Below, piece by piece: positions 13,904-37,622 of a stretch of DNA of 64,000 bases. Below the pieces are notes generated by a model. That model saw nothing but the letters and a program-made list of their open reading frames with translations. It was not told the origin of the DNA and did no database searches. This DNA comes from Glycocaulis sp. GTDB lineage: Bacteria > Pseudomonadota > Alphaproteobacteria > Caulobacterales > Maricaulaceae. Position 1 is the stretch's first letter, and the number at the start of each line of letters is the position of its first letter. Location: contig JAIUMI010000006.1 in assembly GCA_022565665.1 (NCBI GenBank), positions 62,001 through 126,000 of the forward strand, given 5' to 3'. A program made the position numbers and the translations under genes.

Positions 13904-15441
13904 TCGGCAGGCTCCGCCAGCGGGGAAATGTGGGGATGCACGGCGCGCGCCTCGGCCAGCGTCAGGCGGGTGTGCGTCGCGACGGCACTGGTGGAGGGAT
14001 GATCGCTGCGGAAATGCCCGCCCCGGCTCTCGGTGCGCAGCATGGCCCCTGCCGCCACGAAACGCGCGGCGATAAGCGCATCGGCTTCGCCGTGCTTGGC
14101 CTCCAGCGCGTTGATAGTGTCAAGCAGGCGTGCAAGCCCCGCCGCCTCCCGCTCCACGCCTGCCTCAATGGCCATGGCCGCGCGCAAGCGCGCCAGCGCC
14201 TCGGCCGGCAGGGCCGGGGCCGGATCGGCCGGGACCGGCTTCAGCGCGCGCTGAGGGGCGTTTGCCAGTGCCTCCGCCGCCCGCCGCCCGAAGACCAGCC
14301 CTTCCAGCAGGGAGTTTGACGCCAGCCGGTTCGCGCCATGCACGCCGGTCGAGGCGCATTCGCCCACGGCCCACAGGCCCGGCACGCCGGTAAAGCCTTC
14401 GGTGTCGGCCGCCACCCCGCCCATGTGATAATGCGCCGCCGGGGCGACGGGGATGGGCGCAAGGCGCGGATCAATGCCCGCCGCCCTGCAAGCCGCAAAC
14501 ACGGCCGGGAAGCGCTCGGGGAACTCCGCGCCCACCGCCGCGCGGGCATCGAGATACGCGCCGCGCCCCGTTTTCACCTGCCGGTGTACGGCGCGGGCCA
14601 CCACATCGCGCGGGGCAAGCTCGGCTTGCGGATGAACGCCGCGCATGAAGCGGGTGCCGGTGCGGTCGATCAGCGTCGCGCCTTCACCACGCAGGGCCTC
14701 GGTGGCGAGCGGCGCAGGATCACGGCCCACATCAATGGCGGTGGGGTGAAACTGGACAAATTCCGGGTCCTGGATGACTGCGCCAAGCCGCGCTGCCCAG
14801 CTGAGCGCCTGTCCCTGGCTGGAAGCCGGCGTGGTGGTCACGCCATAAAGCCCGCACAGACTGCCGGTGGCGAGCACGACATCGCTGGCAAGGAGGTCGT
14901 GGAGGTTTCCTGAGGGATCAAACGCCATCACGCCCGCGCACCCACCCGCCGCATCGGGGATCAGACCGGACGCGCGCCAGCCCTCGCGGATCTCGATATG
15001 GGGGGCGGCCTGCACGGCACGGATCAGCGCGGCAAGAATCCCTGCGCCTGCCTGATCGCCCTTCACCCGCGCCACACGGGCGCGCGAATGCGCCGCTTCG
15101 CGCGACAGGGACCAGCTGCCGTCCGCCTCACGCTCGAACGGCGCGCCCAAGCCGTAAAGCGCCTCGATCTCGGCAGGTCCGGCTTCAGCCAGCAGGTAGG
15201 CTGCGGCCTCATAGACCAGCCCGGCTCCGGCGGCAATCGTGTCGCGCGCATGCAAGGACGGTCTGTCATCGGTGCCAAGCGCTGCCGCCACTCCTCCCTG
15301 CGCCCAGCCGGTAGAGCTGCCCTCACCCAGCCTTGCGCCCGTCAGCAGGATCACCCGGCGCGGGGCGGCATGCAGCGCGGTCCAAAGACCGGCTATGCCT
15401 GCGCCAATGATGATGAGGGGGTGGGACAAGGAAAACCTCAA
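13900..15441 (-). CDS. nadB: L-aspartate oxidase
   Basis: A 513-residue flavoprotein oxidising L-aspartate to iminoaspartate, the substrate of NadA. Seen: LIIIGAGIAGLWTAL dinucleotide-binding motif, GSSTGWAQGGVAAALG (FAD-linked), EFVQFHPTAI, HYHMGGVAADTEG and the ANRLASNSLLEGLVFGRRAAEA signature. No ATG or GTG is in frame at the N-terminus, so the start is TTG, at 15441 or more likely 15429, which follows GAGG by 6 bases. The C-terminal three-helix region is present. It is co-operonic with nadC and nadA, although a 79-base gap with a repeat separates it from nadA. Confidence 0.96.
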   Translation of the reverse strand: MRFSLSHPLIIIGAGIAGLWTALHAAPRRVILLTGARLGEGSSTGWAQGGVAAALGTDDRPSLHARDTIAAGAGLVYEAAAYLLAEAGPAEIEALYGLGAPFEREADGSWSLSREAAHSRARVARVKGDQAGAGILAALIRAVQAAPHIEIREGWRASGLIPDAAGGCAGVMAFDPSGNLHDLLASDVVLATGSLCGLYGVTTTPASSQGQALSWAARLGAVIQDPEFVQFHPTAIDVGRDPAPLATEALRGEGATLIDRTGTRFMRGVHPQAELAPRDVVARAVHRQVKTGRGAYLDARAAVGAEFPERFPAVFAACRAAGIDPRLAPIPVAPAAHYHMGGVAADTEGFTGVPGLWAVGECASTGVHGANRLASNSLLEGLVFGRRAAEALANAPQRALKPVPADPAPALPAEALARLRAAMAIEAGVEREAAGLARLLDTINALEAKHGEADALIAARFVAAGAMLRTESRGGHFRSDHPSTSAVATHTRLTLAEARAVHPHISPLAEPAE

Positions 15442-15446
15442 TCAAG

Positions 15447-15508
15447 CGTTTCACCGGCGAAAGCCGGTGCCCAGCTTTTTCTGGGTCCCGGCTTGCGCCG
15501 GGAAAACG
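15447..15508. repeat. Palindromic repeat family B, copy 2
   Basis: A 62-base inverted repeat like 10591-10651 (ACCGGCGAAAGCCGGT core, mirror ending GCCGGGAAAACG), placed inside the nad operon between nadA and nadB. In the transcript it would form a hairpin that could stabilise or process the mRNA, which is inference. Confidence 0.8.
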
Positions 15509-15520
15509 AGAAATGGGCGG

Positions 15521-16648
15521 CTAAACGCTCACATACGGAACGGAGACCACAGGCTTGCTGGTGTCGAAGGCAGGCGGCTTGCCGAGCGATGGCAGCGCCA
15601 GCATCGCATCAACGCTCGCCTTGGCGCGCGCGGCGATCACCGGATCAACATGCACCTCGTGCTTCATGTCGCGCAGGGCTTCATAGATGCCTTTCAGCGT
15701 GATGCGCTTCATGTGCGGGCAGAGATTGCACGGTTTGACGAAATTCACGCCCGGATTTTCCACCGCCACATTATCGCTCATCGAGCATTCGGTGATGAGG
15801 ATGGCCGTGTGCGGCTGGTGATCCTTCACATAGGCCGCCATCGCGCCGGTGGAGCCGGCAAAGTCAGCCGCTTTGAGCACATCCGGCGGGCATTCCGGGT
15901 GGGTGATGATCATGGCGTCCGGGTGAGCGGCGCGCAGGGCCTCGATATCGTCCACCGTGAACTGCTCATGCACCTCGCAACTGCCCTTCCAGGTGAGGAT
16001 GCGGATGCCGGTCTGGCTGGCGACATTCTTCGCCAGATACTCGTCCGGAATGAGGATGACCGTGTCGGTATTCCATTCCGCTGCGATGGCCTCGACAACC
16101 TGCACGGCATTGGACGAGGTGCAGCAGATGTCGGAATACGCCTTCACTTCCGCCGACGTGTTTACATAGGTGACGATTGGGTAGTCGGGATAGGCCTCTC
16201 GGATGGCGCGCACATTGGCGCCACTGATCGAGGCGGCGAGCGAACAGCCCGCGCGCTCGTCAGGGATCAGCACGGTCTTTTCCGGCGACAGGATTTTCGC
16301 CGTCTCGGCCATGAAGTGGACACCCGCCTGCACGATCACGCTGGCTTCGGTTTTCGCCGCTTCCTGCGCAAGTTTGAGCGAATCCCCCATGATATCGCCC
16401 ACCGTGTGGAAGATATCGGCGGTCATGTAATTGTGGGCGAGGATGACGGCGTCGCGCTCGACTTTGAGCCGGTTGATCGCGTCGATCAGCGGCGCATGCA
16501 GCGGCCACTCCATCGGCGTCACCACCGATTTCACTTTTTCATAGAGGTGATCGGTGCGCGCCTTCACGCCCGCATCATAGACCAGCGCATCGGCTTCGGG
16601 CCATGCATTATCAAGGGCTTGCATGCGGGTCGGGTCGTGCCGGTCCAT
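15521..16648 (-). CDS. nadA: Quinolinate synthase
   Basis: A 375-residue 4Fe-4S enzyme condensing iminoaspartate with dihydroxyacetone phosphate to quinolinate. Seen: ILAHNYMTADIFHTVGDIMGDSL split over the first pseudo-repeat, Cys in ERAGCSLAASISG, Cys in DICCTSSNAVQVV, and Cys-Asn-Leu-Cys near residues 301-304 (CNLCPHMKRITL), giving the three cluster ligands of the family, plus TGSTGAM-like GSTGAMAAYV. It is the first gene of the nad operon. Its upstream region carries two TGCTC-N4-TGAGC inverted repeats. Confidence 0.97.
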   Translation of the reverse strand: MDRHDPTRMQALDNAWPEADALVYDAGVKARTDHLYEKVKSVVTPMEWPLHAPLIDAINRLKVERDAVILAHNYMTADIFHTVGDIMGDSLKLAQEAAKTEASVIVQAGVHFMAETAKILSPEKTVLIPDERAGCSLAASISGANVRAIREAYPDYPIVTYVNTSAEVKAYSDICCTSSNAVQVVEAIAAEWNTDTVILIPDEYLAKNVASQTGIRILTWKGSCEVHEQFTVDDIEALRAAHPDAMIITHPECPPDVLKAADFAGSTGAMAAYVKDHQPHTAILITECSMSDNVAVENPGVNFVKPCNLCPHMKRITLKGIYEALRDMKHEVHVDPVIAARAKASVDAMLALPSLGKPPAFDTSKPVVSVPYVSV

Positions 16649-16676
16649 CGCGTCTCATCCTCCTTCTGCCCGCTTT

Positions 16677-16691
16677 TGCTCATTTTGAGCA
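16677..16691. promoter_or_regulatory. nadA-proximal inverted repeat (putative NAD-regulon operator, site 1)
   Basis: TGCTCA-TTT-TGAGCA, a perfect palindrome 28 bases upstream of the nadA ATG. The same TGCTC-N4-TGAGC pattern recurs at 16740-16754. Alphaproteobacterial nadABC operons are often controlled by a dedicated repressor (NadQ); I cannot confirm from memory that this is its motif. Confidence 0.6.
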
Positions 16692-16739
16692 TTAAGGGGA
16701 GCCAGAAAATCGGCGGGCCGTTCACCGGTCTCGCCGTTA

Positions 16740-16754
16740 TGCTCTTAGTGAGCC
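16740..16754. promoter_or_regulatory. nadA-distal inverted repeat (site 2)
   Basis: TGCTC-TTAG-TGAGC, with the same half-sites and spacing as site 1, 63 bases further from nadA. Two copies in a 187-base promoter region that is otherwise featureless support a paired operator. Confidence 0.55.
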
Positions 16755-16835
16755 TAAGGTGGGATGTTTCTACGCCCCGGCAAGGGGGGATGCAAGACAG
16801 TTTTCTTACACCCCCGCCCGAGGAGGGGATTGCAG

Positions 16836-17396
16836 CTATCTCACGCGGGCATAGCGCAAGAGCACAACATCGTTTTTCATTGGCCGCGCTTCAAGCAGAG
16901 ACAGCTTTCTGCGGCCCATCCACTCCTTGAACAACGGGACGCCTTCACCGTGCAATAGCGGCGCGACGCCGATACGGTACTCGTCAAACAGATCCGCCTC
17001 GATCAGCGGACGGGCCAGCTGTGCGCTGCCGAAAAGATAGAGATTCTTGCCGCCTTCGGCCTTCAGCCGCGCAATCTCCGCCACCGGATCACTGTTGAAC
17101 ATGGTCACATTGGCCCAGTCGGAGTGCTTGATGGAGCGGGAGAACACATATTTCGGCAGTGTATTCATGAAATGGGCGACATTGGCCTCCGGCCCGTCTG
17201 CCGCGCCCGGCCAGTAGCCCGCCATCAGATCATGGGTGCGCCGGCCGAACACCATGCCGCCCATCGCCTCCCCCTGCTGGATGGAGATTGCTTCCAGATC
17301 TTCGCTCCAGGCATCGGCCATCCACGAAATATCGTGGCCGGGACCTTCAAACCGGCCATCCAGCCCCATCAGATTCCACATGATCAGCTTGCGCAT
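16836..17396 (-). CDS. Dihydrofolate reductase-family protein (RibD C-terminal type)
   Basis: A 186-residue protein of the DHFR/RibD C-terminal superfamily: MRKLIMWNLMGLDGRFEGPG, GGMVFGRRTHDLMAGYWP, YVFSRSI, NLYLFGSAQLARPLIEADLFDEYRI and GEGVPLFKEW. Stand-alone members like YwjB/YyaP are uncharacterised NADPH-dependent reductases. ATG 17396 follows GAGGAG by 8 bases and fits the family start. It is the last gene of a four-gene block (SnoaL-like, two SRPBCC, this) pointing away from an HxlR regulator. Confidence 0.87.
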   Translation of the reverse strand: MRKLIMWNLMGLDGRFEGPGHDISWMADAWSEDLEAISIQQGEAMGGMVFGRRTHDLMAGYWPGAADGPEANVAHFMNTLPKYVFSRSIKHSDWANVTMFNSDPVAEIARLKAEGGKNLYLFGSAQLARPLIEADLFDEYRIGVAPLLHGEGVPLFKEWMGRRKLSLLEARPMKNDVVLLRYARVR

Positions 17397-20771: not shown

Positions 20772-21653
20772 ATGGCCACCAAAAAAGCGCCGTCCTTTCA
20801 GGAGCTGATCCTGACGCTCCAGCACTACTGGGCCGATCAGGGCTGCGCCATATTGCAGCCCTATGATGTGGAAGTGGGTGCCGGCACACTGCATCCGGCG
20901 ACGACGCTGCGCTCGCTGGGTCCGAAGCCATGGCGAGCGGTCTATGTGCAGCCCTCGCGCCGTCCGGGCGACGGGCGCTATGGCGAGAACCCGAACCGGC
21001 TGCAGCACTATTACCAGTTCCAGGTGCTGTTAAAGCCCTGCCCGGCCGATATTCAGGACCTCTATCTCGGCTCGCTCGATGCGCTGGGAATCGACCGGCG
21101 CTTACACGATGTGCGCTTTGTCGAGGATGACTGGGAGAACCCGACCGTCGGCGCATGGGGGCTGGGCTGGGAGGTCTGGTGCGACGGCATGGAAGTGAGC
21201 CAGTTCACTTACTTCCAGCAGGTCGGCGGGCTTGATGTGGAGCTGGTCTCCGGCGAGCTGACCTACGGGCTGGAACGCCTCGCCATGTATGTGCAGGGCG
21301 TGGAGAATGTCTACGATCTCGATTTCAACGGGGCGGGCCTGACATACGGCGATGTGTTCCTTGAGAATGAGCGCCAGCACTCGGCCTTCAATTTCGAGCA
21401 TGCCGATGTCGATATGCTGATCGAATGGTTCAAGGGCGCGGAGAAGCAGTGCATGGCGCTGCTGAGCCTGCCGACGCCCCTGCCCCTGCCCGCCTATGAC
21501 TGGTGTCTGAAGGCCTCGCACCTGTTCAACCTGGTCGATGCGCGCGGCGCGATTTCGGTCGCCGAGCGCGCCAGCTGGATTGCGCGGGTGCGCGAGCTCG
21601 CCAAGGGCTGCGCCAGCGCCTGGGTGGAACAGCAGAAAAAGGATGCCGCCTGA
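20772..21653 (+). CDS. glyQ: Glycyl-tRNA synthetase alpha subunit
   Basis: A 293-residue class II catalytic subunit that activates glycine and, with GlyS, charges tRNA-Gly. Seen: [25 protein letters not shown] split near the N-terminus, motif 2 region [32 protein letters not shown], and motif 3 [16 protein letters not shown] 20772 is the family start; an upstream in-frame ATG at 20712 would add 20 unsupported residues. Two GST genes separate it from glyS. Confidence 0.97.
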
Positions 21654-22246
21654 TGAGTGTGAAACTTTACCACAACCCGCAATCGCGCGCCGTGATGATG
21701 CACTGGCTGCTGGAGGAAATCGGCTGCCCGTACGAGCTGGTGCCTGTCCAGTATGATGACGGCTCGATGCGCTCGGACTCCTTCCTGAAGCTGAACCCGA
21801 TGGGCAAGATCCCGGTGCTGGTCGATGGCGACACGGTGGTCACCGAAACCGTCGCCATCGCGCTCTATCTCGCCGACAAGTTCAAGACGCCTAACGATCT
21901 CGCCCCTGCGATCGACGATGCCACGCGCGGCGACTATCTGCGCTGGATAGCCTTCCAGTCCGGCGCGGTGGAGCCGGCCATGATGCAGGCTGGCGCAAAG
22001 TTCGAGGCACGGCGCGAAACGGCTGGCTGGGGCTCTGCCGAACTGGTGGTAGACGTCCTGGAACAGCGCATATCGCAGGCGAGCCCGTGGCTGCTGGGCG
22101 AGAAATTTTCCGCCGCAGACGTCGTGCTCGGCGGCTCATTGAGCTGGGCGGTGGGCTGGAAGCTCTTCCCGGCAAAACCAGGCTTTGCTGACTACCTTGA
22201 ACGCCTCACCGAACGGCCCGCTTACAAGCGTGCTTATGCAACCTAG
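21653..22246 (+). CDS. Glutathione S-transferase family protein 1
   Basis: A 197-residue GST: N-terminal thioredoxin-fold (LYHNPQSRAVMMHWLLEEIGCPYELV), the cis-Pro region GKIPVLVDGDTVVTETVAIALYL with Glu-Thr for glutathione gamma-glutamyl binding, and an all-helical C-terminal domain (WLLGEKFSAADVVLGGSLSWAV). Ser in NPQSRA is the likely catalytic residue. Its ATG overlaps the glyQ stop, so the two are co-translated. Substrate unknown. Confidence 0.92.
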   Translation: MSVKLYHNPQSRAVMMHWLLEEIGCPYELVPVQYDDGSMRSDSFLKLNPMGKIPVLVDGDTVVTETVAIALYLADKFKTPNDLAPAIDDATRGDYLRWIAFQSGAVEPAMMQAGAKFEARRETAGWGSAELVVDVLEQRISQASPWLLGEKFSAADVVLGGSLSWAVGWKLFPAKPGFADYLERLTERPAYKRAYAT

Positions 22247-22264
22247 TAGAAAGCCCCGACCCTC

Positions 22265-22870
22265 GTGAGTGACGCGAAAGACCTCATCGTCTGGCATGGC
22301 CCCAATACCCGCTCCACCGGCACGGTCTGGCTGGTGGAAGAACTCGGCGTGCCCTACGAGCTGCGCAAAGTGGACGTGTTCGGCGGCGAGACGCGCGAGG
22401 CGGAATTCCTGAAAATCAATCCGGCCGGGAAAGTCCCTGCCATCCGCCACAAGGGCAAGACGCTGACCGAGATGGCCGCGATCTCGCTCTATCTGTGCGA
22501 TGAATTTCCAGATGCCGGGCTGGCACCGGCCATCCATGACCCGCTGCGCGCCGATTATCTCTACTGGAGCATTTTCCGCCCCGGCGTGCTGGAACCCGCC
22601 CTCATCACCAAGGCGCAGAACCTTGATGTAGACCCGCGCACGGTCGGCTGGGGCGAATGGGAAACCGTCATCACCCTGATCGAGACGGCGCTGAATGACG
22701 GCCCCTGGCTGCTGGGTGAGCGCTTCAGCGCGGCTGATATCCTGATTGGCGGCGCGCTCGGCTGGATGAAGCATTTCAACCTGATGCCGGGCCACTCGCC
22801 CATCAACGCCTATCTCGACCGCCTCAATGCCCGCCCCGCGCGCCAGCGCGCGCAGGCCACCAACTCCTGA
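22265..22870 (+). CDS. Glutathione S-transferase family protein 2
   Basis: A 201-residue GST (GTG start) related to the preceding gene: GPNTRSTGTVWLVEELGVPYEL, NPAGKVPAIRHKGKTLTEMAAISLYLCDEF, and GPWLLGERFSAADILIGGALGW. The shared WLLGE-FSAAD core indicates a tandem duplication that has diverged considerably. It lies 20 bases upstream of glyS. Confidence 0.92.
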   Translation: MSDAKDLIVWHGPNTRSTGTVWLVEELGVPYELRKVDVFGGETREAEFLKINPAGKVPAIRHKGKTLTEMAAISLYLCDEFPDAGLAPAIHDPLRADYLYWSIFRPGVLEPALITKAQNLDVDPRTVGWGEWETVITLIETALNDGPWLLGERFSAADILIGGALGWMKHFNLMPGHSPINAYLDRLNARPARQRAQATNS

Positions 22871-22890: not shown

Positions 22891-25461
22891 TTGGCCCAGC
22901 TACTCATTGAAATCTTCTGCGAGGAAATCCCGGCCCGCATGCAGGCTCGCGCCGAGGATGATCTTGCCCGGCTGATGGGCGATGCGTTCAAGGCGGCGGG
23001 CCTTGGCGTGGAAAGCCTTCAAACCTTTTCCGGCCCGCGCCGTATCGGGCTGGTGGCGGAAGGTGTCCCTGCCCGCACGGCCGATGTGAGCGAGGAACGC
23101 AAGGGCCCGCGCGTCGGCTCGCCGGATAAGGCGGTACAGGGCTTTTTGCGCGGCGCGGGGCTGACGAGCCTTGATCAATGCCGCATCGACACCACCCCCA
23201 AGGGTGATTTCTACGTGGCGGTGATCGAAAAGCCCGGCCGCGATGCGGGCGAAGTGATTGCGCAGACGCTGGAAAGCACGATCCGCAATTTCCCCTGGCC
23301 GAAATCGATGAAGTTTGGCGAGGGCGAGAAGGCCCAGCGCTGGGTGCGGCCCCTGCACCGCATCATCTGCCTGCTCGACGGCGCGGTCGTGCCGGTGAAG
23401 GTGTTCGGCATTGAAGCCTCCAACCTCACCGAAGGCCACCGCATCCATTCGAAAGAGAGCCGCGTCTTCGCGGTGAAGGATTATGCCGATTACGCCGCAA
23501 AGCTGCGCGATAACGGCGTTGTCCTGACCCGCGCAGAGCGCTCAGAGATCATTCTGGACGGCGCAAAGCGCGTGTGCGCCGATGCCGGGCTGGAACTGAT
23601 CGAGGATGAGGGATTGCTGGCCGAAGTGACGGGGCTCGCCGAATGGCCGGTGGCTGTGCTGGGCGAGATCGACCCGGCCTTCCTGGATCTGCCCGCCGAA
23701 GTCATCGCGCTGACCATGAAGGTGCACCAGAAATACTTCGCGGTGCGTGATCCCAAGACCGGCCAGATCGCCCCGAAATTCGTCAAGATCGCCAATCAGG
23801 ACGCCACAGATGGCGGTAAGGCGATTGCGCACGGCGCAGGCCGCGTCGTCTCCGCGCGCCTGTCCGATGCCCGCCATTTCTGGGATCTCGACCGCAAGCG
23901 CGGGCTTGAGGCGATGGCGGGTGAGCTTTCGAAGGTCACCTTCCACGAAAAGCTCGGCACGCTGGCCGACAAGGTGGAGCGGGTCGCCGCGCTCGCGCGC
24001 GAGCTTGCCCCAGCCGTCGGTGCAGACCCGGAGCTGGCATACTGCGCAGCAAAGCTCGCCAAGGCGGACCTCGTCAGCCAGATGGTCTATGAATTCCCCG
24101 AGCTTCAGGGCGTGATGGGGCGCTATTATGCTCTGGCGGCGGGTGAACCGGCGGAGATCGCCGATGCCATCCGCGATCACTACAAGCCGCAAGGCCCGTC
24201 AGACGCGGTGCCGACAGCGCCGGTCAGCGCGGCCGTGGCGCTCGCCGACAAGCTCGACACGCTGGTCGGCTTCTGGGCGATTGATGAAAAACCCACCGGC
24301 TCGAAAGACCCGTTCGCCCTGCGGCGCGCAGCGCTGGGGGTGATCAGGATTCTGTCTGTTCAGAACCTATCTCTGCCCATTCAGCGAGCCATGTGGTTAG
24401 CCCATGTTGCATTAGTCGCGACTTGGGCAAGACCGAACGCAGATTACTCGCATTCAGCGTCTAGCTACTGGGAAGGTGAAAGCAGGCCAACGCCCAACTT
24501 GTTTGCGCCTCCTATTTCACAATGGGTAAACTGGGACGGAATTTTGGGCGGCGAACGCGGAGAGTATGTTGCCGGCGCTCAAATGGGCTTTCCCGAACTG
24601 CTTCCGCCCGACGAACCGAGCGACAAGCACCTTGCAGGCGATCGGGACCTCGAGATCGTTCGGCAAAGAGCAAAAGCGCTTGATACTGCCATCCTGAATT
24701 TCATTTTTGATGGTCCTCCTGAAAAAGCGCACGATTGGCTAACCGCGGCATCCAACACCCTTGATGAGCAGCTACCCGAATCTGCGCTGTATCTTAGCGA
24801 CCTCCTCGCCTTCTTCGCCGACCGGCTCAAAGTCCACCTCCGCGATGAGGGCATACGCCACGACGTGATCGATGCGGTGTTTGCGCTTGGCGATGATGAT
24901 CTGGTGCGCGTCACCGCGAAATCACGCGCGCTGCAGGGCTTCATTGATACCGATAATGGCGCGGCGCTGCTGGCCGGCTACCGGCGCGCGGCGAACATAT
25001 TGAAGGCCGAGGAAGGCAAGGGCTTTGACGTCGCGGCGGCGCTCAAAGAGCTTGATCCCTCTTCAAGTCCCCCCCTCGGCCCTTCGGGCCACTCCCCCCG
25101 CAAGCAGGGGGAGAAAGAGGAGGCAGCACTTTCCTCCCCCGTTCACGGGGGAGGTGTCAGCGAAGCTGACGGAGGGGGGATACTTTCCGGCCTCGCCGCT
25201 GCCGCGACCGAACCCGAAGAAGCCGCCCTCATCGCCGCACTGAAAGCCGCGTCTCAGGACGCCGCCACCGCCCTCGAAACCGAGAACTTTGAAGGCGCGA
25301 TGCGTGCGCTGGCGGGCCTTCGCGCACCCGTTGATGCCTTCTTCGAGGCGGTTACGGTGAATGCCAGCGAGGAAATGTTGCGGCGCAACAGACTTGTTCT
25401 ATTGTCGCGCATCCGCGATGCCGTCAGGGCTGTGGCAGACTTTGACCGGCTGGAAGGCTGA
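22891..25461 (+). CDS. glyS: Glycyl-tRNA synthetase beta subunit with two insertions
   Basis: An 856-residue tRNA-recognition subunit; most GlyS proteins are about 690-710. It starts with TTG (AQLLIEIFCEEIPARMQARAEDDL). Conserved blocks include GPRRIGLVAEGVP, FPWPKSMKFGEGEKAQRWVRPL, ALTMKVHQKYFAV, LSDARHFWDLDRK, DPFALRRAALGVIRI and LLAFFADRLKVHLRDEGIRHD. The extra length is explained by about 130 residues around 490-620 from lower-GC DNA, and about 40 residues around 725-765 from a hairpin cassette. Both stay in frame, so the protein is presumably functional. The C-terminal anticodon-binding-like domain continues after the cassette. Confidence 0.95.
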   Translation: MAQLLIEIFCEEIPARMQARAEDDLARLMGDAFKAAGLGVESLQTFSGPRRIGLVAEGVPARTADVSEERKGPRVGSPDKAVQGFLRGAGLTSLDQCRIDTTPKGDFYVAVIEKPGRDAGEVIAQTLESTIRNFPWPKSMKFGEGEKAQRWVRPLHRIICLLDGAVVPVKVFGIEASNLTEGHRIHSKESRVFAVKDYADYAAKLRDNGVVLTRAERSEIILDGAKRVCADAGLELIEDEGLLAEVTGLAEWPVAVLGEIDPAFLDLPAEVIALTMKVHQKYFAVRDPKTGQIAPKFVKIANQDATDGGKAIAHGAGRVVSARLSDARHFWDLDRKRGLEAMAGELSKVTFHEKLGTLADKVERVAALARELAPAVGADPELAYCAAKLAKADLVSQMVYEFPELQGVMGRYYALAAGEPAEIADAIRDHYKPQGPSDAVPTAPVSAAVALADKLDTLVGFWAIDEKPTGSKDPFALRRAALGVIRILSVQNLSLPIQRAMWLAHVALVATWARPNADYSHSASSYWEGESRPTPNLFAPPISQWVNWDGILGGERGEYVAGAQMGFPELLPPDEPSDKHLAGDRDLEIVRQRAKALDTAILNFIFDGPPEKAHDWLTAASNTLDEQLPESALYLSDLLAFFADRLKVHLRDEGIRHDVIDAVFALGDDDLVRVTAKSRALQGFIDTDNGAALLAGYRRAANILKAEEGKGFDVAAALKELDPSSSPPLGPSGHSPRKQGEKEEAALSSPVHGGGVSEADGGGILSGLAAAATEPEEAALIAALKAASQDAATALETENFEGAMRALAGLRAPVDAFFEAVTVNASEEMLRRNRLVLLSRIRDAVRAVADFDRLEG
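24350..24795 (+). other. Lower-GC in-frame insertion within glyS
   Basis: Between GVIRI and LLAFFADRLKV, which are close together in ordinary GlyS, this segment encodes about 100-130 extra residues. Its codon choice (tta, cat, gtt, ttt, aga) and base composition are visibly less GC-rich than the flanks. No known domain is recognised. The edges are approximate. Confidence 0.7.
25064..25183 (+). repeat. Translated four-hairpin cassette inside glyS
   Basis: Four short hairpins follow one another: arms GGCCC/GGGCC (25078-25090), CTCCCCC/GGGGGAG (25092-25113), CCTCCCCCG/CGGGGGAGG (25133-25154) and GTCAGC/GCTGAC (25156-25170). This resembles the C-rich palindromic repeats often found between genes in Caulobacterales, here read in frame as a Ser/Pro/Gly-rich stretch. 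Confidence 0.8.
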
Positions 25462-34990: not shown

Positions 34991-36658
34991 TTACATATTG
35001 GGGTAGTTCGGGCCACCGGCTCCCTCGGGCGTTGTCCAGTTGATGTTCTGGTTCGGATCCTTGATGTCGCACGTCTTGCAGTGCACGCAGTTCTGCGCGT
35101 TGATCACGAATTTGGGCGCGCCGCCCTCATCGACCCACTCATAGACCGCCGCCGGGCAATAGCGCGCAGACGGACCTGCGAATACATCGTGCTCGCTCGA
35201 TTTCTGCAAGGCCAGATCGGCGACCTTCAGGTGAACGGGCTGGTCTTCCTCGTGATTGGTGTTGGAGATGAACACCGAAGAGAGCCGGTCGAAGGTGAGC
35301 ACGCCATCGGGCTTGGGATAATGGATCGGCTTGCATTGGCTGGCCGGCTTGGTCGCCTCGTGATCCGCCCCGCCATGGCCGAGCGTGCCGAAGATGGAAA
35401 AGCCGAACAGTTCGTTCGTCCACATATCCATCCCGCCAAGCCCGATACCGATGAGCGTGCCCCATTTGGTCCAGAGCGGCTTGACGTTGCGGACCTTTTT
35501 CAGCTCCGCCTTCACCCATGATTTGTCGTAGGCCGCCTCATAGGCGGTCAGCACGTCATGCTCGCGGTTCTCGCCGAGCGCCGCAAAGGCGGCTTCAGCG
35601 GCCATCATGCCGGTCTTCATGGCGTTATGGCTGCCCTTGATGCGCGGCACGTTTACAAAACCGGCCGAACAGCCGATCAGCGCGCCGCCGGGGAAAGCCA
35701 GCTTCGGCACGGACTGGTAGCCGCCCTCGGTGATGGCGCGCGCGCCGTAGGACAGGCGCTCTGCCCCTTCAAGGATGGGCGCGATATCCGGGTGGGTCTT
35801 CAGGCGCTGGAACTCGCCGAACGGGAACAGGTTCGGGTTCTTGTAGTTGAGGTGCACCACAAAGCCGATGGCGACGAGATTATCGCCGAAATGATACATG
35901 AAGGAGCCACCGCCCGTATCGTTGGAGAGCGGCCAGCCCATGGTGTGCATGGCCAGCCCCTTCTTGTGGTTCTCCGGCTTCACCCGCCAGAGCTCCTTCA
36001 TGCCGAGCCCGTATTTCTGCGGTTCGCGCCCCTCATCGAGATCGAAGCGCTTGATCAGTTGTTTCGACAGGCTGCCGCGCGCACCTTCCGCAAAGAGGGT
36101 GTATTTCGCGCGCAGCTCCATGCCGGGCTGGTACATGTCCTTCTTCGAACCGTCGCGGGCCACGCCCATATCGCCGGTGACGACGCCCTTGATGGCGCCG
36201 TCTTCCTCTATCAGCTCGGCCGCCGGGAAGCCGGGATATATCTCCACGCCCATGCCTTCGGCCTTTTCGGCAAGCCAGCGGGTCAGATTGCCCAGCGAGC
36301 CGATATAGCAGCCGTGATTGTGCATGAAGCCCGGCATGGCAAAGCCGGGGAAGGTCGCAGAACCGGACTCGCCCAGCGCCACGAACTTGTCGCTCGTCAC
36401 TTCGGTGTCGAAGGGCTGGGCGGGATCATCGCGCCAGTCGGGGAAAAGCTCGTCGAGCGCTTTGGGATCAAACACCACGCCGGAGAGAATATGGGCGCCG
36501 ACCTCGGAGCCCTTCTCGATCACCGCGACCGAAACCTCGCGGCCCTCTATTTCAGCAAGCTGTTTGATGCGGATGGCGGCGGACAGCCCGGCCGGGCCTG
36601 CGCCAGCAATCACCACATCATATTCCATCGCCTCGCGTTCGATGTCCCCGTCTGCCAT
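34991..36658 (-). CDS. Electron transfer flavoprotein-ubiquinone oxidoreductase
   Basis: A 555-residue membrane-associated flavoprotein passing electrons from ETF to the quinone pool. Seen: DVVIAGAGPAGLSAAIRIKQLA (FAD motif), GAHILSGVVFDPKALDELFP, GGYQSVPKLAFPGGALIGCSAGFVN split across the ubiquinone region, and the C-terminal 4Fe-4S ligand run CVHCKTCDIKDPNQNINW. Length and motifs are standard. It serves the acyl-CoA dehydrogenases of this window (gcdH and the gene at 44.7 kb). It is divergent from the uracil-DNA glycosylase gene across 214 bases. Confidence 0.96.
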   Translation of the reverse strand: MADGDIEREAMEYDVVIAGAGPAGLSAAIRIKQLAEIEGREVSVAVIEKGSEVGAHILSGVVFDPKALDELFPDWRDDPAQPFDTEVTSDKFVALGESGSATFPGFAMPGFMHNHGCYIGSLGNLTRWLAEKAEGMGVEIYPGFPAAELIEEDGAIKGVVTGDMGVARDGSKKDMYQPGMELRAKYTLFAEGARGSLSKQLIKRFDLDEGREPQKYGLGMKELWRVKPENHKKGLAMHTMGWPLSNDTGGGSFMYHFGDNLVAIGFVVHLNYKNPNLFPFGEFQRLKTHPDIAPILEGAERLSYGARAITEGGYQSVPKLAFPGGALIGCSAGFVNVPRIKGSHNAMKTGMMAAEAAFAALGENREHDVLTAYEAAYDKSWVKAELKKVRNVKPLWTKWGTLIGIGLGGMDMWTNELFGFSIFGTLGHGGADHEATKPASQCKPIHYPKPDGVLTFDRLSSVFISNTNHEEDQPVHLKVADLALQKSSEHDVFAGPSARYCPAAVYEWVDEGGAPKFVINAQNCVHCKTCDIKDPNQNINWTTPEGAGGPNYPNM

Positions 36659-36872
36659 TTTGCCTCTCTCTCGTCAGGTCTTTGTCTTGCCGGCTTTTGC
36701 CGGATCGGAGGGGTTGGTCTGCATACTGCCGGCGGGTTTGCGCCGGAGCTGCTCCCGTCTTAGCTTACGAATATGCAATGAGCTAGGGCGTGGCGGTAGT
36801 TCCGCCAGCGTCTTGCATGCCATCAGGATGTATTCGTTGACCCCTCCCCGAGCCATAGATCCGCGCCGTGCG

Positions 36873-37622
36873 ATGAACAGCCTGATCGGCTGGTGGGAGG
36901 ATGCCGGGATCGAGACCGACATTCCGGTTCTGCCGCCCGCTGGCACGCGCACCGCGCCTGCAGCGCGCACTCAGGCCCCGCCTGCCCCTCCTTCCAAACC
37001 TGCCGCCAAGGCCCCTTTAAAGCCCCACCAGGACGCGCGCGCGATGGCGGGCAGTGCAGACAGCGTAGAGGCGCTCAAGGCCGTCCTGGAGCAATATGAG
37101 GGCTGTGCGCTCAAGTTCACCGCCACCAACACCGTCTTTGCCCGCGGCAATCCGGCTGCGCCGCTTATGGTGATCGGTGAAGGGCCCGGCGCGGAAGAGG
37201 ACAGGCAGGGCGCCCCCTTTGTGGGGCGTTCCGGCCAGCTGCTCGACCGGATGCTGGGCGCGATCGGCCTTGATGAAACCGGGTTTCACATCACCAATGT
37301 CGTCTACTGGCGACCGCCCGGAAACCGCAAACCCTCATCCGAGGAAATTGAAGCCTGCCGCCCCTTCGTGGAGCGCCATATCGCGATTGCGAAGCCACGC
37401 GTGATCCTGCTGGCGGGCGGCATTGCGGCCCAGGCCCTGCTGAACACGCCGCAAGGCATCATGGCGCTGCGTGGGCGCTGGGCGGAGATCAGCGCAGGCG
37501 GACACACCGCCCCTGCCCTGCCCACCTTCCACCCGGCCTTCCTCTTGCGCCGTCCGCAGGAAAAGGCAAAGGCCTGGGCGGACATGCTTTCGCTTGCCGA
37601 TAAGCTGGAAGAGCTGGGCTAA
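36873..37622 (+). CDS. Uracil-DNA glycosylase family 4-like
   Basis: A 249-residue base-excision repair protein. The UDG-like motifs are GEGPGAEEDRQGAPFVGRSG (motif A region, about 102-121) and the C-terminal HPAFLLRRP. Canonical family 4 enzymes use four Cys for a 4Fe-4S cluster. Here the first position is Tyr75 and the third is Trp146 (VVYWRPPGNR), leaving only Cys78 and Cys162, so the cluster is probably lost. An Ala/Pro-rich linker occupies about 25-50. ATG 36873 starts the recognisable N-terminus (MNSLIGWWEDAG). Confidence 0.9.
   Translation: MNSLIGWWEDAGIETDIPVLPPAGTRTAPAARTQAPPAPPSKPAAKAPLKPHQDARAMAGSADSVEALKAVLEQYEGCALKFTATNTVFARGNPAAPLMVIGEGPGAEEDRQGAPFVGRSGQLLDRMLGAIGLDETGFHITNVVYWRPPGNRKPSSEEIEACRPFVERHIAIAKPRVILLAGGIAAQALLNTPQGIMALRGRWAEISAGGHTAPALPTFHPAFLLRRPQEKAKAWADMLSLADKLEELG

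Follow-up and report, generated by a model that had tools for sequence, protein, structure and literature searches.

Segmentally variable genes are conserved genes interrupted by a variable region 70 amino acids (aa) or more in length, for which binding functions have been proposed (Zheng, Roberts and Kasif 2004, PMC387263). In the available part of that paper, most housekeeping genes are placed among the fully conserved ones and variability in aminoacyl-tRNA synthetases is discussed as tRNA recognition; its synthetase example is prolyl-tRNA synthetase (ProRS), whose inserted domain is less conserved and resembles YbaK, and the text nowhere contains the term 'glycyl'. Here we analysed a 64,000-nucleotide (nt) stretch of a Glycocaulis sp. 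genome (contig JAIUMI010000006.1, positions 62,001 to 126,000; hereafter, the window) and describe, in its gene for the β-subunit of glycyl-tRNA synthetase (glyS; GlyRS for the enzyme), a 139-aa in-frame insert that sequence comparison identifies as one allele of a hypervariable site in alphaproteobacterial GlyS. Segmentally variable genes are the nearest concept, with which the site shares an internal variable region in a conserved gene, and glyS falls within their description, having flanks that are conserved in four of four congeners. In contrast to the ProRS domain, as it is presented in the part of the paper available, the GlyS segments are dissimilar even between sister species.

Extra domains near the tRNA-binding surface are a further point of likeness, and include the ProRS domain and Ins3 of human GlyRS (PMC8464048). 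As portrayed in the portions of these reports considered, such insertions are single homologous domains, whereas the GlyS site holds 257 stretches in 193 blastp groups, with no match to an editing domain. The tips of Rhs and contact-dependent inhibition proteins and the specificity domains of restriction systems likewise combine conserved flanks with a swapped, unrelated module of lower guanine–cytosine (GC) content and patchy sharing; however, these are dispensable conflict genes, and the GlyS module sits in an essential cytosolic enzyme. Diversity-generating retroelements introduce adenine-directed changes by means of a template repeat and a reverse transcriptase, and the wholesale replacement of a cassette is unlike this. 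We found no description of a variable GlyS insert in the open-access literature at the level of titles and abstract openings, a scope outside which most subscription papers lie. Essential synthetases count as conserved markers. It is highly unusual for a housekeeping enzyme to contain a module that has often been swapped between one sister species and the next and that recurs in different genera, and this suggests persistent selection for change at that position.

The gene begins with TTG. Its product matches the TIGR00211 profile (709 bits, E = 5.5e-213) and the β-chain of Escherichia coli GlyRS (7yse_C, E = 1e-102), and the best Protein Data Bank (PDB) matches of its AlphaFold2 model are GlyRS structures. 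The match to the E. coli chain halts at residue 499 and restarts at residue 632; in that alignment, the counterpart stretch in E. coli is roughly 15–20 aa long. Between the conserved anchors DPFALRRAALGVIRI (ending at 24351) and DLLAFFADRLKV (starting at 24799) lie 149 aa, of which about 10 form a junction that replaces a helix end conserved in relatives and 139 are the insert itself (Table 1). The insert has a GC content of 0.544, compared with 0.646 for the window, and of 2505 stretches of equal length sampled from the rest of the window (every 25 bases and mutually overlapping), only 9 are equally GC-poor; GC at third codon positions (GC3) is 0.518 in the insert and 0.759 in the remainder of glyS. 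A first-pass annotation, made from the letters alone, had placed about 100–130 extra residues between two GlyS blocks at 24350–24795, in GC-poor DNA with unusual codons, and its residue count is right and its limits are correct to within a few tens of bases. It had also seen no recognised motif and no intein splice residues, and here too the analysis agrees: no Pfam or NCBIfam family was found in the insert at E = 0.01. Inteins have Cys, Ser or Thr at the start, Asn at the end and Cys, Ser or Thr directly after; the insert starts with Q, ends with S and is followed by D.

Table 1 Features of glyS in the window (positions from the first letter of the window)
Feature	Position	Strand	Basis or remark
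glyS, GlyRS β-subunit, 856 aa	22891..25461	+	TIGR00211; 7yse_C; PDB matches of the model
Upstream conserved anchor DPFALRRAALGVIRI, with R478/R479	24307..24351	+	R478 and R479 invariant in the relatives compared
Junction LSVQNLSLPI	24352..24381	+	Diverged from xLExxxRLxL typical of relatives
Hypervariable cassette, 139 aa, in frame, low GC	24382..24798	+	blastp group shared with none of five congeners
Insert-family core SQWVNWDGILGGERGEYV, best conserved part	24517..24570	+	Common to GlyS of G339, a different genus
Downstream conserved anchor DLLAFFADRLKV, with R645	24799..24834	+	R645 invariant in 31 sequences
Second glyS insert (site C), Pro/Ser/Gly-rich, palindrome-bearing, repeat-like, outside the cassette	25060..25188 (edges approximate)	+	

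A segment of similar length and composition is not common to all close relatives. Measured after the first 10 residues, the inter-anchor stretch is 140 aa long in the window and 33, 79, 73, 34 and 69 aa long in five congeners, which differ in insert family as well as in length. A wider survey started from 330 loci; 6 without a usable flank pair in one frame and 3 without the downstream anchor pattern were set aside, and removal of 25 duplicates from the remaining 321 left 296 distinct alphaproteobacterial GlyS with both anchors (DPFALRRAALG and DLLAFFADRLKV), the boundaries being uncertain in two (anchor offsets of -17 and -27). Across these, the stretch ranges from 3 to 161 aa, with a median of 50. 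The 39 stretches of less than 20 aa were excluded from grouping; the 257 others form 193 groups by single-linkage blastp (E < 1e-3), 29 with several members and 164 singletons, a maximum, as two of the groups unite under a longer comparison. In the genus of the Brevundimonas search, 63 inserts fall into 42 groups, and in the window's family and the other relatives from the order combined, 108 inserts fall into 89. Stretches in the class-wide loci are short (n = 29, median 25 aa, range 10–60 aa), so that hypervariability is most pronounced in the order of the window and in genomes of Rhodobacterales type. One helical insert family with an HGVFGAAF-like core, present in 13 GlyS (L075, L080, L097, L101, L103, L106, L113, L116, L117, L121, L123, L125 and L300), is a long-resident allele that lends itself to structural study; 12 of the 13 are from Rhodobacterales-type records, and L300, which was filed in the Brevundimonas search, has Rhodobacterales-like flanks, may be from a contaminant contig and was kept in. 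Outside the class, the full-length GlyS matches listed span 2031–2118 nt, and a few other listed matches are split or partial. Separately, seven genomes of genus g217, also outside the class (G653, G671, G675, G691, G703, G714 and G729), have open frames of 1016–1110 aa that enclose an ordinary GlyS match, and are possibly fusions to another protein or open upstream frames.

Even between close relatives, the cassette is, as judged by blastp grouping, usually not recognisably similar. With identity taken over 100 flanking residues, and with pairs that are not independent, the two inserts belong to one group in 7 of the 29 pairs whose flanks are 99% identical or more; at 95–99% this holds for 12 of 367 pairs and at 90–95% for 23 of 1373. 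Judged by the N-terminal part, the nearest relative of 55 sequences reaches 0.95 or more, and only 4 of these sequences share its group. The edges are sharp at the DNA level: in 60-nt windows, one pair (L308/L309) is 92–100% identical in the flanks within about 300 nt and 48–77% identical in the insert, and another (L195/L196) is 82–100% identical in the flanks and 40–63% in the insert. Of the 40 window genes compared with four congeners (126 gene-by-genome comparisons, some genes being located in fewer than four), glyS alone is interrupted by non-homologous sequence inside well-conserved flanks, and this is so in every one of the four. GlyS was matched in each of the 61 genomes of the first relative search, own genome included, but as one contiguous match in only 27, a count in which splits at other insert sites are included, whereas PheT gave one contiguous match in 57 and partial matches in the other 4. 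Among the GlyS of that search examined individually, the inter-anchor stretch mostly varied in both length and sequence. A cruder form of the 40-gene control, now superseded, was insensitive, picking up glyS in one of four congeners and flagging two other genes; the short diverged internal stretches that it showed between congeners at 36324–37619 and 15239–16927 are absent in the stricter control.

In three pairs, recent exchange of the cassette is shown by far fewer differences in the insert than in the flanks. The clearest case joins two loci filed in different species (L055/L329), with no difference in a 255-nt insert and flanks that are 7.8% diverged (binomial P = 9e-10); the nearest flank differences lie 25 nt upstream and 23 nt downstream. 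The same pattern, although weaker, is seen in L213/L215 (5 differences, P = 8e-7) and L024/L290 (8 differences, P = 1.5e-5). The five pairs tested for recent transfer were chosen after a survey of insert and flank divergence, in which other inserts exceed their flanks in synonymous divergence (L076/L294, L186/L190 and L174/L195). Relatedness and insert group are also discordant: in 20 of 28 multi-member groups under a stricter rule, and in 22 under a looser one, there is a pair whose two members each resemble an outsider more closely, in the N-terminal part, than they resemble one another. The locus thus combines unrelated alleles across species with horizontal exchange, as expected of an arms-race locus, recent exchange being significant in three of the five pairs. 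Hypervariability across much of the class was not foreseen in the first-pass annotation. The horizontal acquisition that it suggested is supported for the site in general, by the unrelated segments of congeners and by near-identical inserts within diverged flanks in a few pairs; for the window's own insert, no donor was identified.

The inserts have the character of evolved protein. Among representatives of the 193 groups, Cys makes up 0.4% of residues, compared with 0.3% in the flanks and 3.0% in shuffled DNA, on which ground random non-coding filler is rejected, and the purine share of first codon positions is 0.63 in inserts and 0.64 in flanks. Each of the remaining five frames is open in 25 to 62 of the 193 representatives, which gives no support to a gene hidden in one of them. 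Homologous cassettes are, on the ratio of non-synonymous to synonymous rates (dN/dS), conserved as protein: 63 homologous pairs (at least 55% identical over at least 20 codons, which favours constrained pairs) yielded 44 with a measurable ratio, with a median of 0.15, 41 values below 0.5 and a maximum of 0.92. In 27 of 35 pairs, the rate of evolution is higher for the insert than for the flanks. GC is lower in the insert than in the flanks in 177 of the 193 representatives, by a median of 11.7 points, and GC3 is 0.54 in singleton inserts and 0.76 in their flanks. In seven multi-member groups checked, GC3 of insert and flank is near-equal in four (0.67/0.76, 0.56/0.54, 0.80/0.86 and 0.27/0.27) and lower in the insert in three (0.68/0.89, 0.60/0.80 and 0.60/0.89); the figures are 0.60/0.76 for short loops and 0.72/0.78 for class-wide loci. 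This pattern fits recent import followed by amelioration, without proving it.

Relatives of the two insert families that we searched for occur, as far as sequence similarity can tell, in GlyS only. A search of 348 genomes of the order for the window's insert yielded a single clear relative, which occupies the corresponding GlyS position in a genome of a different genus (G339; 35% identity over 138 positions, core WVNWDGIL.GERGE). At E ≤ 0.01, eight other genomes gave matches, comprising G339, four that contain stops, one in a frame (L335) that we take to be ArgS-like, and G014 and G454. The second family, A5, occurs in 8 of the 348 genomes, from five genera of two families and always in GlyS, although seven of the eight are the alignment's own rows and only G526 is new. 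A 23-aa viral match (L340) was set aside. Silent cassettes were rejected for the window's own genome, where a search with the insert protein recovers nothing but the insert, and the glyS profile nothing but glyS.

The cassette is located within the HD domain, which in E. coli GlyRS (residues 341–540) clamps the acceptor stem of the tRNA, with contacts by Gly473, Asp474, Asp476, Arg481, Arg482 and Arg531 (PMC9908026, PMC8464048), that of Arg531 being to the acceptor-stem backbone (PMC9908026). By our reading of the alignment, R478 and R479 appear equivalent to E. coli R481 and R482, and R645 to R531; the cassette would therefore join two tRNA-contacting elements. The AlphaFold2 model of GlyS has a mean predicted local distance difference test score (pLDDT) of 83 and includes helices at 497–513, 585–606 and 610–623. 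An editing-like domain, another early suggestion, finds no sequence support in Pfam or NCBIfam, and the insert fold is modelled mostly below or near a pLDDT of 50. One other insert family was modelled as all-helical (mean pLDDT 69), with no PDB fold match at E ≤ 0.001.

The interpretation that we favour, and regard as evenly poised between right and wrong, is that of a polymorphic cassette whose position in the HD domain is fixed and which is exchanged between glyS genes, with turnover that is perhaps driven by an antagonist. Incoming glyS DNA would recombine through the conserved flanks and replace the cassette, and many cassettes may stem from an AT-richer source outside the sample. Less certainly, turnover might be driven by escape from, or rare-allele selection against, an intracellular antagonist, conceivably a protein from a phage, or an interbacterial toxin encountering GlyRS, that recognises a face of the HD domain; tRNA charging would be retained because the clamp residues are unchanged. 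We advance only tentatively the stronger claim that alphaproteobacterial GlyRS is a cytosolic polymorphic conflict locus, at which populations would maintain a large repertoire of unrelated, horizontally exchanged cassettes that escape or sense a widespread antagonist (from a phage, or a transferred toxin) at that face.

Several results weigh against this interpretation. Neither an antagonist nor a partner or source was found in the searches made. There was no phage or plasmid match for the window's insert, no phage match for four other inserts and no plasmid match for two, and viral contigs held nothing credible for three inserts (the window's and two others). For the window's insert and 104 representatives with a length of 58 aa or more, drawn from the 193 groups (105 inserts in total), Pfam, PHROGs, NCBIfam and PADLOC gave no convincing defence or phage family, only isolated matches with a best E of 0.001, as chance predicts. 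Amino acid change shows no general excess: dN/dS rises to 0.55, 0.87 and 0.92 in just three of the 44 pairs. Low GC is no proof of import, since short loops and some groups also have lowered GC3. Two of the five pairs examined for recent transfer (L303/L306, P = 0.25; L314/L315, P = 0.08) show no significant deficit of differences, and discordance between group and relatedness can also stem from loss and replacement in between. Much of the window's insert is modelled below a pLDDT of 50 (517–538 and 546–585).

The main rival, possible but in our view unlikely, is a permissive HD-domain loop that accepts nearly any soluble segment, such that inserts are neutral in-frame captures of foreign coding DNA selected only for folding and solubility. 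It accords with stretches as short as 3 aa, with the low GC3 of singleton inserts, with the lack of a partner and with the 105 inserts, which have no invariant column, no conserved ends and no shared motif. Repeat-like inserts at two other GlyS loops also speak for it, but turnover at the HD-domain site is extreme by comparison: inserts of at least 45 aa occur at one of these loops (site A) in 21 of 236 GlyS, and segments of at least 80 aa at the other (site C) in 11 of 189, the site patterns having been recovered in only 236 and 189 of the 296, respectively. Nor does any of the 39 other window genes behave in this way; homologous inserts are constrained, and random captures might match other genes, whereas relatives of two families lie in GlyS. 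A permissive loop accounts for tolerance of inserts, and less well for their confinement to GlyS, their constraint and the rate of replacement.

A selfish cassette seems improbable. The site would be a place where DNA is cut or recombined, for example by a nuclease acting on glyS alleles that are empty or unmatched, and any filler that destroys the target would be favoured; the fixed insertion point, the very high turnover and the confinement of one exchanged tract to the cassette plus about 20 nt per side would follow. However, none of the 105 inserts matches a nuclease or recombinase family (nucleases elsewhere in the genomes or in phages were not searched for), and filler would not be expected to resemble evolved protein. 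More doubtful still is functional tuning, by which each insert would adapt tRNA-Gly binding, regulation or a partner enzyme to its lineage: the position between equivalents of acceptor-stem contacts and the existence of families with conserved cores are in keeping with it, yet it leaves unexplained both replacement between species with near-identical flanks and patchy sharing across genera. Relaxed drift or the remnant of an intein or intron, in favour of which stand the lower GC and odd codons noted at the outset, is very improbable, given a median dN/dS of 0.15 in 44 pairs, protein-like composition and sharp non-homologous edges, on which drift is rejected, and the lack of conserved ends in the 105 inserts, of a family match in the window's insert and of any lower limit on stretch length above 3 aa.

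Set against the 39 neighbouring genes, which look ordinary in comparison with congeners, the cassette points to an unrecognised selection pressure or insertion process acting on GlyRS in a large bacterial class. This is relevant to structural work and inhibitor design on bacterial GlyRS, and to phylogenies based on glyS.

The inserts at sites A and C look like a different phenomenon from the cassette, and show that GlyS loops tolerate insertions. Both are Pro/Ser/Gly-rich and palindrome-like. Site A, at around residue 418 (for example, in L037, L266 and L284), is empty in the window's GlyS; site C lies at around residues 727–766, of which 727–758 are modelled below a pLDDT of 50. The insert at site C is probably a repeat element read in frame, although its 23-mer GTCAGCGAAGCTGACGGAGGGGG is single in the genome at up to two mismatches. 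In Rickettsia, palindromic repeat elements (RPE) are found in frame within conserved genes. Miniature inverted-repeat transposable elements inside genes have been described in Coxiella (PMC5896051, in the part of the report available). Sites A and C resemble such elements as in-frame repeat DNA in a conserved gene; the cassette differs in being protein-like and low in GC, with no second protein-level copy in its own genome. Between glyQ and glyS, two open reading frames (21503–22870) presumably encode glutathione S-transferases.

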